NCBI RefSeq assembly: GCF_000428825.1
Contig: NZ_AUAR01000013.1
Span: 62,001-126,000 of the forward strand
Length of the DNA: 64,000 bases
Reading direction: 5' to 3'
DNA from: Desulfomicrobium escambiense DSM 10707
Lineage (GTDB): Bacteria; Desulfobacterota; Desulfovibrionia; Desulfovibrionales; Desulfomicrobiaceae
Shown: piece after piece, positions 10,011 to 15,467 of the stretch
Position numbering within the stretch: the stretch's first letter is position 1
Layout: every line of letters begins with the position of its first letter
Translations under genes and position numbers: made by a program
Notes under the pieces: model-generated
Told to the model about the DNA's origin: nothing
Databases searched by the model: none
What the model saw: only the letters and a program-made list of their open reading frames with translations

Positions 10011-11246
10011 TCAGCCCGCCAGGCATTTCAGCACGGTGTCCCTGTCCACCATGCCCAAAAGCCTCCCTCCGCCGTCCACGACCAGAATCCGCTTGACCTT
10101 GCGCTCGGTCAGGGTGCGGATGACCTCGGTCAGGGGCATTTCGGGGTGGATGGTGATGCTGTCCATGGTCATGACATCCCGCGCTGCGCCCTGTATATCC
10201 GGCTCTGCACCTTCTTTGCGGGAGAGCGCGGCGATGAGGTTTTTCAGGACCCCGGGCGCGTTTTTACGGGCGAAGTCGTTCAGGATGTCCCGGTCGTGGA
10301 CCAGTCCCATGACTTTCATGTCTTCGTCCACGATGACCACCCTGCGCAGGGGCGAGGCCAGAATCTGATCCAGGATGTCCGGGAGCGCGGTGTCTGGTCC
10401 CGCTGTGGGCACGTCGCGAAACATCACGTCTGCTGCCGTGCCGCGGGTCGTGTCGGGCAGAACGTCCAGATGCCCGGCCACAACGGACGCATGGCCGATG
10501 GCCCGGAGCACGTCGGCCCGGCTGACGATGCCCATGAGCGTGCCGTCGTCGGCCACGACCGGGAGGCGTTTCATGTCGCCCTTGGCCATGAGCTGCACCG
10601 CATCGCTGACCTTGGTCTTGATGTTCAGGGTCTGAACCGGCGAGGTCATGATGTCCCCGGCCACAAGGTTTCTGAAATCGAGGCAGCGCACATGCTCGTC
10701 CCGCATGTTCGCCGGCAGGCTGCACTGCGCGTCGAGGCTCAGTGGCATCCCGCCGCGCGAGAGGAGGTCGCCGCCGGTGATGATGCCCCTGATCGTCTTG
10801 CCCTCGAGGACTGGAACCGCCTTGACCTTTCTCTGCAGCAGCAGTTCGACCACTTTGGCAAGCGGGGTCGAAGGCGAGACGGTGGCCACGTCCTCGGTCA
10901 TGACGTCGCGGATGCGCAACGGCAGGTGGAAGACCGCCTGGGCCTCGCTGACAACGATGCTCCCCTCGTCGACCATGGAGTCGGCCACGGGCAGAAAGGC
11001 GTCTATCCGATCTGGCCTGTCGACGATCTCGACCACGACGGGCAGGTCTTCCGACAGGCGCAGTATCTTGGCCGTATGGATGAGGCTGTTGGCCCCGAAG
11101 CCCATGAATCCACGACAGACGGTCGCTCCGGCCATACCCCTTTGCCGTGCCGCCTCCACGATGGCCTCGTGCAGTACCTGGCCCTGGAAGCGGGCCGACT
11201 CGCCCATGAATATCCGCATGACCTTCACGCTGATCAAGGAATGCAT
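10011..11246 (-). CDS. DUF190 (PII-like) domain fused to four CBS domains
   Basis: In this 411-residue protein, residues 1 to about 105 form a DUF190 domain (HSLISVKVMRIFMGE; MAGATVCRGFMGFG; LPVVVEIVD), a PII-like fold often found beside crcB. Four CBS modules follow, each with a V-M-T-x-D start and a D-x-L end: IRDVMTEDVATVSP, GDIMTSPVQTL, AADVMFRDVPTAGP and ARDVMTMDSITIHP. CBS pairs bind adenine nucleotides, so this looks like a cytoplasmic energy or nucleotide sensor. GGAGGG precedes the ATG at 11246. It lies 13 bases after crcB and is the last gene of the fluoride-riboswitch operon, which suggests it tunes fluoride export or reports its cost (inference). DUF190 with four CBS domains is longer than the usual stand-alone DUF190 of about 110 residues. 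Confidence 0.88.
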   Translation of the reverse strand: MHSLISVKVMRIFMGESARFQGQVLHEAIVEAARQRGMAGATVCRGFMGFGANSLIHTAKILRLSEDLPVVVEIVDRPDRIDAFLPVADSMVDEGSIVVSEAQAVFHLPLRIRDVMTEDVATVSPSTPLAKVVELLLQRKVKAVPVLEGKTIRGIITGGDLLSRGGMPLSLDAQCSLPANMRDEHVRCLDFRNLVAGDIMTSPVQTLNIKTKVSDAVQLMAKGDMKRLPVVADDGTLMGIVSRADVLRAIGHASVVAGHLDVLPDTTRGTAADVMFRDVPTAGPDTALPDILDQILASPLRRVVIVDEDMKVMGLVHDRDILNDFARKNAPGVLKNLIAALSRKEGAEPDIQGAARDVMTMDSITIHPEMPLTEVIRTLTERKVKRILVVDGGGRLLGMVDRDTVLKCLAG

Positions 11247-11259
11247 ACAGGTCCCTCCA

Positions 11260-11634
11260 TTAAATGATTCTGCCCAGACCCGAGCCCAGATAGAGGGCCG
11301 CGAACCCGACGATGTTCTGCCCGCCGACATTGAGGGCGAGCTTGAGCCACTGGCCTTCGTTCAGGATGCCGCCGCTTTCGAAGATGAAGGTCGAAAACGT
11401 CGTGAACGCGCCCATGAAGCCCGTCAGGATCAGGATGCGCGCCTGCGCCGACAGGAAGCCGCGTTCCTCGGCCAGGACCGCGACCAGGCCGAACAGAAAG
11501 CAGCCCAGGATGTTCACGGCCCAAGTGCCCCAGGGGAAGTCGCGCCCCAGGATGTCGTAGGCCAGGCCGGACAGCCAGTAGCGGCTCAAGGTGCCGCAGG
11601 CCCCGGCCAGGGCGATCAGAAGGATTTTCATCAT
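11260..11634 (-). CDS. crcB: Fluoride channel CrcB/Fluc
   Basis: This 124-residue protein has four membrane segments. Family motifs are GACGTLSRYWLSG at the N-terminus, PWGTWAVNILGCFLFG (the conserved Asn of the fluoride path), and GFMGAFTTFSTFIFE, the break-helix and phenylalanine-box region. Fluc channels work as dual-topology dimers that let fluoride leave the cell. Length matches the family. Tandem ATGs at 11634 and 11631 overlap the stop codon of an upstream 58-codon frame, so translation may be coupled. The operon is headed by a fluoride riboswitch, which independently supports the function. Confidence 0.96.
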   Translation of the reverse strand: MMKILLIALAGACGTLSRYWLSGLAYDILGRDFPWGTWAVNILGCFLFGLVAVLAEERGFLSAQARILILTGFMGAFTTFSTFIFESGGILNEGQWLKLALNVGGQNIVGFAALYLGSGLGRII

Positions 11635-11807
11635 GGATTCCTCGTTGAAAGCATAGTGTCACTCTCCTCAATTCGCCACGCCGCTGTCGGCAACTGAGGA
11701 CGTGTTTCCAGGGCGGCCATACCGAGCATGTGGGCGCCCTCGTCCCGTCTGCGGCTGACGGAAAAATGCAGTTCGACCGTAATTTCCCGCAACTCATTGA
11801 CGCTCAT
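11631..11807 (-). CDS. Small ORF (58 aa) coupled to crcB
   Basis: The frame begins with ATG at 11807 preceded by GGGAGGGGAGGA, a strong Shine-Dalgarno. It reads MSVNELREITVELHFSVSRR and ends in TGA at 11633-11631, inside the tandem ATGs of crcB. It fills the 194-base gap between the MFS gene and crcB. The product is soluble, charged and matches no family I recognise. It could be a real small protein or a leader frame that delivers ribosomes to crcB. The ribosome site and exact overlap support translation; conservation is unknown. Confidence 0.45.
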   Translation of the reverse strand: MSVNELREITVELHFSVSRRRDEGAHMLGMAALETRPQLPTAAWRIEESDTMLSTRNP

Positions 11808-11828
11808 GGCGTGTCCTCCCCTCCCCTG

Positions 11829-13037
11829 CTAGACCGCGGCCCTGATTTTCGGACGAACCGCCAGGGCGACGATGACGGCCAGAAAGGCCGCCGAGCCGCC
11901 GAGCACGAACGGCGCGCGCGACCCGATCAAGTCCCAGCACAGTCCGGCCGTGACGCTGCCGGCCAGCATCATGAGCCCTACGCCCATGTGGAAGATGCCC
12001 ATGGCCGTGCCCTTGCGGTCTTCCGGTATGCGGTCGCGGATGAGCGCGCGGCCCACGCCTTCGGTCAACCCCATGAACAGCCCGTACAGGGCGAAAAGCC
12101 ACCACACGTCCCCCATGCCCGCATTGGCCACGCCGAGATAGACGAAGCCGTACAGCGTCCAGCCAGTCAGGACCATCTTCCAGCGTCCCATGCGATCGCT
12201 CAATATTCCGAGCGGGTAGGCGCTGAGCGCGTAGACGAGATTGAAGAGCAGGTAGGCCATGATGGACTGCGTGTCGGTGAGGCCCAGATCCTTGGCGCGC
12301 AGAATGAGGAAGGTGTCCGAGGAATTGGCAAAGGCGAAGACCAGAAGCGGGGCCAGGGTCAGCCAGAAGGCCTGCGGCAACCCGGACCACGGCTTGCCGC
12401 CCAGCGGCACTCGGGACGGGGAAGGCGCGCCCGTCGGGGTCTTGGCCGCCTCGCGCAGGCGGAAGGTCAGCCATACGGCGGCAAGGCCCGGCACTGTGGC
12501 GATGAGGAAGATGGTCCGGTAGTGGCCGGGGAGCAGGAAAAGGAGCATGGTGGCCAGCAGCACGCCGATCATGGCCCCGGCCGTGTCCATCATGCGGTGG
12601 AAGCCGAAGGCCTGGCCACCTCGGGACGCGTCCACGGCGTCGGCAATCAGGGCGTCCCTGGCCGTGGTGCGCAGCCCCTTGCCGGTGCGGTCCACGGCCC
12701 TGGCCAGCAGGATCATGGGCCAGGAAAAGGCCATGGCCATGAACGGTTTGGATATCGCCCCCAGCCCGTAGCCCCAGCGGATGTACGGCACGCGCCTGCC
12801 CAGCTTGTCGCAGTGCCAGCCGGAGACGCCCTTCATGATGCTGACGATGACCTCGGCGATGCCTTCGATGGCACCCAGCACGGCCACGGGCGCCCCGAGC
12901 ACTGCGGTCAGGAAGAGCGGAACCACGGGGTAGACCATTTCCGAGGCGACATCCATGAAGAAACTGACCCAGCCGAGGCGCTTGACCTCCTCGGGCAGGG
13001 CCGTGCGCGCACTGAATGTATTGTGTATGAGGCTCAT
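11829..13037 (-). CDS. Major facilitator superfamily transporter in the fluoride operon
   Basis: This 402-residue protein has 12 predicted membrane segments and the MFS loop 2-3 signature in the form SGWHCDKLGRRVPYIRWG, plus GRWKMVL in the second half. Early residues FFMDVASEMVYPVVPLFL are typical of a drug/sugar-type MFS subgroup. CAAGGAGAACGGC precedes the ATG at 13037. It is the first gene after the fluoride riboswitch and its terminator hairpin, so its expression should rise with fluoride. Substrate is not evident; export of fluoride-related or other toxic anions, or relief of a secondary effect of fluoride, would be inference. Two small genes and the CBS protein follow on the same strand. 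Confidence 0.88.
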   Translation of the reverse strand: MSLIHNTFSARTALPEEVKRLGWVSFFMDVASEMVYPVVPLFLTAVLGAPVAVLGAIEGIAEVIVSIMKGVSGWHCDKLGRRVPYIRWGYGLGAISKPFMAMAFSWPMILLARAVDRTGKGLRTTARDALIADAVDASRGGQAFGFHRMMDTAGAMIGVLLATMLLFLLPGHYRTIFLIATVPGLAAVWLTFRLREAAKTPTGAPSPSRVPLGGKPWSGLPQAFWLTLAPLLVFAFANSSDTFLILRAKDLGLTDTQSIMAYLLFNLVYALSAYPLGILSDRMGRWKMVLTGWTLYGFVYLGVANAGMGDVWWLFALYGLFMGLTEGVGRALIRDRIPEDRKGTAMGIFHMGVGLMMLAGSVTAGLCWDLIGSRAPFVLGGSAAFLAVIVALAVRPKIRAAV

Positions 13038-13075
13038 GCCGTTCTCCTTGAATTACGGTCAAGGCAGGACCGGCC

Positions 13076-13100
13076 AAAAAAAACCACGACTGAGCGTGGT
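13076..13100 (-). terminator. Leader terminator of the fluoride operon
   Basis: On the minus strand ACCACG, a 6-base loop and CGTGGT (13100-13083) are followed by eight T (13083-13076). It lies between the fluoride aptamer and the first start codon, so it can stop transcription inside the leader and serve as the expression platform. Confidence 0.85.
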
Positions 13101-13140
13101 ATCGTCGGACCGCAAAATTCCTACCATCGCTGCTGCAAAA

Positions 13141-13190
13141 GTAGGAGTCATCAGCGGCCATCGCGGTTCAAGGGGGACTCCATCCCCGCC
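13141..13190 (-). promoter_or_regulatory. Fluoride riboswitch (crcB motif) aptamer
   Basis: Read on the minus strand, the element has the stem GGGGATGGAGTCCCC, the AAC junction, a short second stem, then TGATGACTCCTAC. These match the crcB-motif consensus: GGNGATGG, CCC, AAC and TGATG followed by a CCTAC end. The pseudoknot strands are GGAGT in the first loop and ACTCC near the 3' end. The motif binds fluoride through magnesium ions. It sits about 100 bases upstream of the MFS gene, with a terminator between, and the operon carries crcB, so both sequence and context agree. Confidence 0.95.
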
Positions 13191-13422
13191 GTGAAAGGTA
13201 TTCCGAACGTATTGTCGAGTAAAGCTGAATTTCGGCGTCCTGTCTGCCGAATCCTCCACTGAGGCTCCGGTATGCGTCGGATTGAACGACGCGGGTCCGG
13301 GCAGAGGCGCACACGCTATCGGCATTGCCGATTCCGGCACGATGGACGCATTGAATATCGTGATTTGCCTCCCGTTCCGCTTTCCAGCAAAGAATGAAAA
13401 ATTTGACATGGAGGAAGCTGTG

Positions 13423-14697
13423 ATGAGCGAAGCGTACCGGGAAATGTGGGAGAACCTGAATCTGGATCTGGCCGCCCATGACGGGCTTCTGTCCGTGCTG
13501 GGCAAGTTCTACGGCGACATCTACATGAGCCAGCAGGGCCGCCTCAAGGGAATGGAGTACCTCGATTTCGTCCTGTCCGAGGTGCACGGCCTGCGCATCA
13601 AGGAATTGCAGGACGCCAAGGCCCAGGGGCGCAAGATCGTCGGCACCTTCTGCGTCTTCGTGCCCGAGGAGCTGGCCCTGGCCGTGGACGCCGTGCAGGT
13701 CGGCCTGTGCGCCGGGGCCGACGCGGGCCGCGAGGCGGCCGAGACGCTGGTGCCGCGCAATACCTGCGCGCTGATCAAGTCCTTCATCGGCTTCAAGCTG
13801 GCGCGGCTTTGCCCGTACACCGAATCCTGCGACCTCATCGTCGGCGAGACCACCTGCGACGGCAAGAAGAAGGCCTACGAGGCCTTCGCCGAGCACGCGC
13901 CCATGCATATCATGGAAGTTCCCCAGACCAAGACCGAAGCGGCCCGCGCCCTGTGGAAGGCCGAGGTGCTGCGCTACATGGAGAAGCTTGAAGAGCTGAC
14001 CGGGAAAAAGGTCACGGCCGAGAACCTCGCAGCGGCCATCAAGACCGTCAACGCACGCCGCCGCGCCCTGCAGCGTCTGAACGCCCTGCGCGCAGCCGTG
14101 CCCGCGCCCATCTCGGGACGCGACGTGCTGCTCATCAACCAGGTCAGCTTCTACGACGACCCGGTCCGCTTCACAGCCTCCATCAACACCCTGTGCGACC
14201 AGCTCGAAGAGCGCATCAAGGCCGGCGATGGCGTGGCCCCGGCGGACGCCCCGCGCGTCATGCTCTCGGGCTGCCCCATGGCCGTGCCCAACTGGAAGCT
14301 GCCCTACGTCATCGAGAGCTCCGGCGCGGTCATCGTCGGCGAGGAGTCGTGCATCGGCACGCGCAACACCCGTGATCTGACGGACGAGTCCGGCCTGACC
14401 CTGGAGCAGATGATCGACGCCCTGTGCGACCGTTACATGAAGATCGACTGCGCCTGCTTCACGCCCAACGCCGAGCGCCTGGACAACGTCGAGTCCATGG
14501 CCCGCGACCTGAAGGTCGACGGCGTGATCCAGTACGCGCTCATGTTCTGTCAGCCCTACGCCCACGAGGGCATCAAGGTCGAAAGGCGCCTCACGGCCGG
14601 CGGCATCCCGAGCATGTCCCTGGAGACGGACTATTCCATGGAGGACGTGGAGCAGCTCAAGACCCGCGTCGAGGCCTTCCTGGAAACAGTGAGATGA
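13423..14697 (+). CDS. Double-cubane-cluster / 2-hydroxyacyl-CoA dehydratase family protein
   Basis: This 424-residue protein of the HgdB/HgdC-associated dehydratase family (pfam HGD-D type) has conserved cysteine stretches GTFCVFVPEE, NTCALIKSF, CPYTESCDLIVGETTCDGKKK, LSGCPMAVPNWK, GEESCIGTRN and CACFTPN. Single-protein members with a dedicated activator include the double-cubane reductases, which hold an [8Fe-9S] cluster and reduce small substrates at the expense of ATP. GGAGGAAG at 13410-13417 points to the ATG at 13423. The gene overlaps the activator ATPase by 4 bases (ATGA), as in known reductase/activator pairs. The true substrate is unknown; a dehydratase role is less likely because only one dehydratase-type subunit is encoded here. 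Confidence 0.85.
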   Translation: MSEAYREMWENLNLDLAAHDGLLSVLGKFYGDIYMSQQGRLKGMEYLDFVLSEVHGLRIKELQDAKAQGRKIVGTFCVFVPEELALAVDAVQVGLCAGADAGREAAETLVPRNTCALIKSFIGFKLARLCPYTESCDLIVGETTCDGKKKAYEAFAEHAPMHIMEVPQTKTEAARALWKAEVLRYMEKLEELTGKKVTAENLAAAIKTVNARRRALQRLNALRAAVPAPISGRDVLLINQVSFYDDPVRFTASINTLCDQLEERIKAGDGVAPADAPRVMLSGCPMAVPNWKLPYVIESSGAVIVGEESCIGTRNTRDLTDESGLTLEQMIDALCDRYMKIDCACFTPNAERLDNVESMARDLKVDGVIQYALMFCQPYAHEGIKVERRLTAGGIPSMSLETDYSMEDVEQLKTRVEAFLETVR

Positions 14698-15467
14698 TCC
14701 TGGGCATCGACATCGGCTCACGTTCCATCGAGGTGGTCGGCATGGCCGGGGGCGAGGTGGTGGAAAAACGCCGCGCCCCCACCACCTTCAACCCCGTGGC
14801 CCAGGTGCGCGCGCTTCTGGACGGCCTTTCGGCCCGCCGGGCCGTGGCCACGGGCTACGGCCGCAAGCTGGTCCAGGACCTGGACCTGGGTTTTCCGGTG
14901 GAAACCATCACCGAGATCAAGGCCCACGGCCTGGGAGCGGCGCATCATTTCCCCGAGGGGCGCACGGTTCTCGACATCGGCGGCCAGGACACCAAGGCCA
15001 TCGCCCTGCTTCCCGGCGGCCGGGTCGGCAAGTTCGAGATGAACGACCGCTGTGCCGCCGGAACGGGCAAGTTCCTGGAGTACACGGCCCAGATCTTCCA
15101 GATCCCCGTGCAGGAATTCGGCCTCTACGCCCTCGGCGGGGACGCGCCGCCCATCATCAACTCCATGTGCACGGTCTTCGCCGAGACCGAGGCCACGTCC
15201 CTCATGGCCCAGGGGGTGCGCCCCGAGAACATCGCCCTTGGCCTGCACCTGTCCATCGCCCGGCGCACGGCGAACATGCTGCAGCGCGTCGGGCTGGCCT
15301 TCCCGCTCATCTTCGTCGGCGGCGTGGCGCACAACCCCTGCATGCGCAGGCTGCTGGCCGAGCAGACCGGCACCGTCGAAGGCGAAACATTGCTCGTCCC
15401 GGCAGAGCCGGACATGACGGGCGCTCTAGGTGCGGCCCTGTGGGGGGAGACGTTGGCCCGAAGCTGA
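14694..15467 (+). CDS. Activator ATPase of the double-cubane/dehydratase system (ASKHA fold)
   Basis: This 257-residue protein begins MILGIDIGSRSIEVVG, the phosphate-1 loop of the acetate kinase/Hsp70/actin fold. It continues with VLDIGGQDTKAIAL (phosphate 2) and FVGGVAHN (adenosine site). NDRCAAGTGKFLE and INSMCTVFAETEA carry the two cysteines that bind a [4Fe-4S] cluster between the subunits of the homodimer. Such activators use ATP hydrolysis to drive low-potential electrons into the partner cluster and are very oxygen-sensitive. The start overlaps the partner stop by 4 bases. It may also serve the second double-cubane-type protein encoded at 18341-19504, which has no activator of its own. 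Confidence 0.92.
   Translation: MILGIDIGSRSIEVVGMAGGEVVEKRRAPTTFNPVAQVRALLDGLSARRAVATGYGRKLVQDLDLGFPVETITEIKAHGLGAAHHFPEGRTVLDIGGQDTKAIALLPGGRVGKFEMNDRCAAGTGKFLEYTAQIFQIPVQEFGLYALGGDAPPIINSMCTVFAETEATSLMAQGVRPENIALGLHLSIARRTANMLQRVGLAFPLIFVGGVAHNPCMRRLLAEQTGTVEGETLLVPAEPDMTGALGAALWGETLARS

Follow-up and report, generated by a model that had tools for sequence, protein, structure and literature searches.

Layout of the operon

The DNA analyzed here is a stretch of 64,000 nucleotides (nt) from Desulfomicrobium escambiense DSM 10707 (contig NZ_AUAR01000013.1, positions 62,001 to 126,000), which is called the window and whose numbering is used throughout. On its minus strand, positions 13196 to 10011 comprise a fluoride riboswitch and an intrinsic terminator, followed by three contiguous genes coding for a transporter of the major facilitator superfamily (MFS), a putative CrcB fluoride channel and a DUF190 protein fused to four CBS domains. 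Together with a short open reading frame (ORF) and the alternative folds of the leader, the following features were found:

13135 to 13196, minus strand: fluoride riboswitch aptamer (RF01734), full-length model match with 54.0 bits
13119 to 13146, minus strand: switching hairpin of the apo state (P4-like), predicted by step-wise folding; UCCUACU (13146-13140), the 3' strand of the aptamer, with GGUAGGA (13125-13119)
13093 to 13131, minus strand: predicted antiterminator, from step-wise folding; AGCG/GGUA (13131-13122) with UACC/CGCU (13101-13093)
13083 to 13100, minus strand: intrinsic terminator stem-loop with a stretch of eight uridines, ACCACG-CUCAGU-CGUGGU-U8
11829 to 13037, minus strand: MFS transporter of 402 amino acids (PF07690, E 3e-42)
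11634 to 11807, minus strand: spacer ORF of 58 amino acids without family match, its stop overlapping the CrcB start (ATGA)
11260 to 11634, minus strand: CrcB/Fluc fluoride channel (by family) of 124 amino acids (PF02537, 93 bits; NCBIfam crcB TIGR00494)
10011 to 11246, minus strand: protein of 411 amino acids with a DUF190 (PII-like) domain (PF02641, 121 bits) and four CBS domains (four PF00571 stretches, 168 bits)

The MFS gene and the short ORF are separated by 21 nt, this ORF and crcB overlap by 4 nt, and a gap of 13 nt lies between crcB and the DUF190-CBS gene. An earlier note on the window, made from its letters, had described four genes. The MFS, CrcB and DUF190-CBS genes are indeed contiguous, but the short ORF is probably not a gene. 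Its start context is good; its codon score is -0.8, and 57-codon windows of the three real genes all score at least 10.5. As it shows neither a family match nor a coding signature, it was rejected as a protein gene, and the operon is better read as three genes with a spacer ORF, which may couple translation.

The fluoride riboswitch and its leader RNA

The RF01734 match (13196-13135, minus strand) covers model positions 1-64 of 64 with an E-value of 3.4e-12, and its score lies well above the gathering cut-off of 34 bits. The sequence contains both pseudoknot strands, GGAGU and ACUCC, and the alignment to the model shows them as well. This bears out the earlier note, which had recognized a fluoride riboswitch with both strands and had made the assignment depend on the score obtained with the fluoride model. 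A whole-genome scan identified it as the only RF01734 riboswitch in the 3.78-Mb genome. Regulation of the operon by a fluoride riboswitch is well supported by the sequence, and fluoride binding and an ON direction can be assumed by analogy with known members of the family.

By step-wise folding, two mutually exclusive routes were predicted in the leader. Without the hold of the aptamer on its 3' strand, the switching hairpin forms and the terminator stays free; none of 100 shuffles of the window leader matches the duplex energy of this hairpin. With the aptamer held, the lowest-energy fold at 106-112 nt is the antiterminator (AGCG..GGUA with UACC.ACGCU). Since the terminator beats the antiterminator only once it is complete, the control would be kinetic.

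Related leaders were compared within the order Desulfovibrionales. Of those with a placeable aptamer end, 44 of 58 contain an intrinsic terminator, and many share a complementarity in which GGCG before GGUAGG matches CGCC of the terminator arm. The tendency to form the antiterminator is likewise seen in the leaders of relatives. As the 58 leaders are related sequences, no single probability was drawn from the shuffle results.

A riboswitch of another type was observed at locus L128 (G193:C2:458200-469500, leader from 459747), where the aptamer is not accompanied by a terminator and is followed by an MFS gene and a truncated AAA+ gene. Here, the 3' strand of the aptamer seems to pair with the Shine-Dalgarno region instead, which would be translational control.

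The genes of the operon

The first gene encodes the MFS transporter and not CrcB, as the earlier note had stated. It scores 145 bits with the MFS_1 profile (cut-off 33.4 bits), and all NCBIfam MFS equivalogs among the matches listed fall far short of their cut-offs, the best one giving 49 bits against 131. The closest solved structures are QacA-like and vesicular amine transporters, which are distant and score weakly. They fit a proton-coupled antiporter, yet tell nothing about the substrate. In the closest named relative, a Desulfovibrionales bacterium, the transporter is 93% identical.

The presence of CrcB in the operon, also part of the earlier description, was confirmed by TIGR00494 (85 bits, cut-off 80.45 bits). 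The protein can be aligned to a solved Fluc channel across TGFMGAFTTFSTF and AVNILG, and contains the conserved TTFSTF segment as well as an asparagine in its first half, by which the family is recognized. Its membership in this family points to a function as fluoride channel. It is the only intact CrcB of the genome, which also holds one CLC-family gene. A second crcB, located on contig 2 (L230:3330-3790), is broken by frameshifts; the DUF190-CBS gene behind it is intact.

The product of the last gene is, as noted earlier, a fusion of DUF190 with four CBS domains. Its first 100 residues can be aligned along the entire DUF190 domain with the solved structures 2DCL and 1O51, which we take to be PII-like proteins. 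CBS domains of other proteins bind adenine nucleotides. By analogy, the combination of a PII-like fold with CBS domains suggests a sensor of the energy status.

Recurrence of the genes in fluoride riboswitch units

RF01734 is present in 54 of the 347 genomes of the order. Of the riboswitches found in these genomes, 62 were analyzed together with that of the window as 63 units, covering up to about 9 kb behind each switch; the loci L120 and L121 have two switches each, which were counted separately. CrcB lies within 37 units. The survey of MFS genes behind this riboswitch, which the earlier note had suggested, yielded 22 units with an MFS gene, and in 17 of them it is the first gene, although one of the first-gene calls (L112) is a fragment of 84 amino acids. 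Two quite different MFS types occur under the riboswitch. DUF190, alone or fused to CBS domains, directly follows CrcB in 27 of the 37 units with CrcB. Further genes in the units of the order code for enolase, an NhaB-type antiporter, a DSP-type phosphatase and CLC, and one protein was found by eye to resemble MutS. In the nearest relative (L141; G073:C6:20300-32200), the riboswitch, the MFS gene and the start of the spacer ORF are kept, and CrcB and DUF190-CBS are absent from this locus.

In an order on the Nitrospirota side, the riboswitch was found in 48 of 147 genomes (start locus L030, switch with 48.5 bits). A relative of the window MFS lies behind the switch in 5 of the 41 units covered there, usually after a cation:proton antiporter and sometimes after UspA, both named by eye. 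One such unit (L030:868-5445) contains, by eye, a cation:proton antiporter, UspA, a DSP-type phosphatase and the MFS gene; the same type of phosphatase is also present in the Desulfovibrionales-type units L120, L144, L148 and L162.

Because MFS and DUF190 recur in this way, the MFS and DUF190-CBS proteins are reasonable candidate parts of fluoride resistance. This proposal of the earlier note gains support from their recurrence in fluoride units; what it does not extend to is exclusiveness, as neither protein is confined to such units.

Proposed function of the operon

On balance, the locus is probably a fluoride-induced efflux operon, in which a riboswitch controls the MFS transporter, CrcB and the DUF190 protein with its four CBS domains. 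This reading is based on the aptamer, the terminator with its alternative folds, the contiguous genes, their families and their recurrence. In the absence of fluoride, GGUAGGA would capture the 3' strand of the aptamer by pairing, the terminator would fold, and transcription would end before the MFS gene. In the presence of fluoride, sensed as Mg-F, the aptamer would retain its 3' strand, so that the antiterminator could form first and transcription would read through into all three genes. CrcB would then let fluoride out across the membrane. The MFS transporter would most likely be a proton-coupled exporter of a solute that is harmful or surplus under fluoride stress, and the DUF190-CBS protein would most likely sense adenine nucleotides and adapt CrcB, the MFS transporter or both to the energy state of the cell. 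The caution of the earlier note that the roles of these two proteins are inferred still holds for the direction and substrate of the MFS transporter and for the ligand and target of DUF190-CBS. It applies equally to the role of an AAA+ ATPase found in relatives.

Specificity and alternative explanations

Several observations weigh against an efflux operon of this kind. The antiterminator of the window alone is not individually significant, as 9 of 100 shuffles are as good, and the region upstream of the aptamer shows no promoter consensus. In a tree of 42 MFS proteins, the clade of the window transporter has 24 members, 12 with the switch and 12 without it. In addition, several genomes have DUF190-CBS paralogues on their own, with no CrcB beside them.

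The distribution of the switch within the MFS clade requires at least 4-5 changes of state. Since half of the closest relatives have no riboswitch, the transporter may have a general substrate, and a fluoride-specific family was ruled out on the same ground. A more distant MFS lineage is located behind CrcB, with the switch in L129, L135 and L136 and without it in L223 and L224, and the MFS gene of L229 also adjoins CrcB; several MFS lineages are located beside the switch or CrcB. Rather than being specific to fluoride, the family came under fluoride control more than once, as judged from the tree and the gene neighbourhoods. By alignment, no degenerate riboswitch was detected upstream of the switch-less MFS genes, of which only L211 keeps the terminator. 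At this locus (L211:4657-5010), which belongs to the same genus and encodes an MFS protein with 82% identity, there is no aptamer; in its place, transposase-like sequence was recognized by eye, but the terminator hairpin persists. For DUF190-CBS, a role as partner of CrcB only was ruled out, as the copies L235-L242 among the twenty fetched have no CrcB motif nearby.

These distributions lend some weight to an alternative in which the fluoride system consists of riboswitch and CrcB, and MFS and DUF190-CBS are co-transcribed general genes for solutes and energy status which add little tolerance. It would account for the switch-less half of the MFS clade, for the varied neighbours of the switch-less MFS genes and for DUF190-CBS occurring alone. 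It explains less well that MFS is the leading gene in so many units, in several separate lineages and again on the Nitrospirota side, and that DUF190 follows CrcB so regularly. We regard it as rather unlikely, but as the strongest competitor of the efflux operon. That the MFS transporter itself exports fluoride or hydrogen fluoride (HF), as a third kind beside Fluc and CLC-F, would explain the units in which it is the sole exporter-like gene and the called unit has neither CrcB nor CLC (L119, L141, L145, L163 and L165). This reading is very improbable: in the genomes of two of these units (G073 with L141, G148 with L163), CrcB is under the control of a further riboswitch (L166 and L162, respectively), the nearest solved relatives, though distant, are drug and amine transporters, and many MFS relatives are not linked to the riboswitch.

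An AAA+ ATPase in related operons

In L144, L148, L120 and L159, the place after MFS and before CrcB, taken in the window by the spacer ORF alone, holds the gene of an ATPase of about 490 amino acids. This ATPase combines a VCP-like AAA module with an N-domain containing four invariant cysteines. Examples of this gene and its relatives are:

L006:6269-7747, L007:6218-7696 and L003:6305-7783: AAA+ ATPase with four-cysteine N-domain

The N-domain matched no family in Pfam and had no convincing match among solved sequences. A predicted structure of the whole protein was set aside because of a mean predicted local distance difference test (pLDDT) value of 61; modelled alone, the N-domain reached a pLDDT of 72 and gave only generic matches to alpha-beta sandwiches, none at E<=0.001.

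A profile of the N-domain hit 12 places within the order, in 11 of its 347 genomes. Among 297 genomes sampled from the phylum, it hit a single one, which was already known. All 12 places sit in fluoride, CrcB or DUF190 units. A fluoride riboswitch precedes ten of them, including the broken remnants in L128 and L113. In the remaining two, the gene comes directly after DUF190-CBS, with CrcB in L244 and without nearby CrcB in L245. Enolase shares the unit with the ATPase in L118, L121, L144, L148 and L162, and precedes the remnant in L113.

The order might carry a fluoride-stress module consisting of an MFS exporter, a sensor of the DUF190 type and a VCP-like AAA+ ATPase with a single ring and the four-cysteine N-domain, often beside enolase. 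Controlled by the fluoride riboswitch, the ATPase would clear enzymes locked by fluoride, for instance enolase, or restore their activity, as Rubisco activase clears its target. We consider such a module improbable as a whole, and the reactivation of enzymes is speculation from the gene neighbours. If it were true, the operon of the window would be a version of the module that has lost the ATPase.

The spacer ORF is a possible remnant of the AAA+ gene that occupies the same place in relatives. Compared with a profile of the AAA+ N-terminus it scores 1.8 bits, and shuffles reach 6.4 bits. When the positions are anchored, its score is matched by 21 of 2000 shuffles, yet a score as high as the AAA+ median is also attained by 34 of 679 other N-termini.

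Comparison with known systems

Like known crcB-motif (RF01734) riboswitches that control crcB or CLC-F, the window has a full aptamer, a platform of the terminator type and CrcB in the unit. It differs from known operons of this kind in its first gene, which is MFS instead of crcB. Terminators overlapping the motif were already noted at its first description (PMC2864571). In a published covariation model, the pseudoknot strand is part of the terminating stem P4 (PMC13273304). The window leader has two stems instead, with the pseudoknot strand in a hairpin of its own and the terminator further downstream, so that its layout looks like a variant platform.

The fluoride operon of Enterobacter cloacae FRM, ppaC-uspA-eno-gpmA-crcB-orf5249 (PMC5533749), likewise places CrcB and several helper genes behind a single fluoride riboswitch. 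Enolase, which it contains, is shared by relatives of the window operon and not by the window unit itself, and MFS, DUF190-CBS or AAA+ are not among its six named genes. The PII-like DUF190/COG1993 proteins 2DCL and 1O51 are single-domain chains of 114-127 residues, whereas the window protein is fused to four CBS domains. With VCP/Cdc48-type ATPases, the AAA+ protein of the relatives shares the AAA module and lid; it differs by having a single AAA module and the four-cysteine N-domain.

Two kinds of fluoride exporters are known from bacteria, Fluc and CLC-F, and accepted helper genes are few (PMC11139923). In Pseudomonas putida, fluoride tolerance was recently linked to a benzoate transporter (PMC13104614), which shows that unexpected transporters can matter for fluoride. 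Judged by titles and abstracts, a literature search yielded no paper that places MFS, DUF190-CBS or AAA+ genes in fluoride operons; the search did not extend to the genes listed by Baker et al. (2012), so that the novelty of the MFS association is not certain.

The best-supported part of the locus, a known riboswitch with CrcB, is ordinary. Of interest are the repeated company of MFS and DUF190 and, in relatives only, the AAA+ ATPase. A riboswitch is the direct statement of the cell as to which genes are wanted when fluoride rises. With MFS first in about a quarter of the units of one order and present on the Nitrospirota side, and with an AAA+ ATPase that among the genomes searched occurs only in such units, concrete candidates are at hand, and what a cell needs besides a fluoride channel can now be reduced to simple deletion experiments.

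Neighbouring genes

Two genes lie divergently to the operon on the plus strand. The first one (13342-14697) encodes a protein similar to the D component of double-cubane-cluster 2-hydroxyacyl-CoA dehydratases, and the second one (14694-15467) was recognized by eye as an activator-type ATPase.

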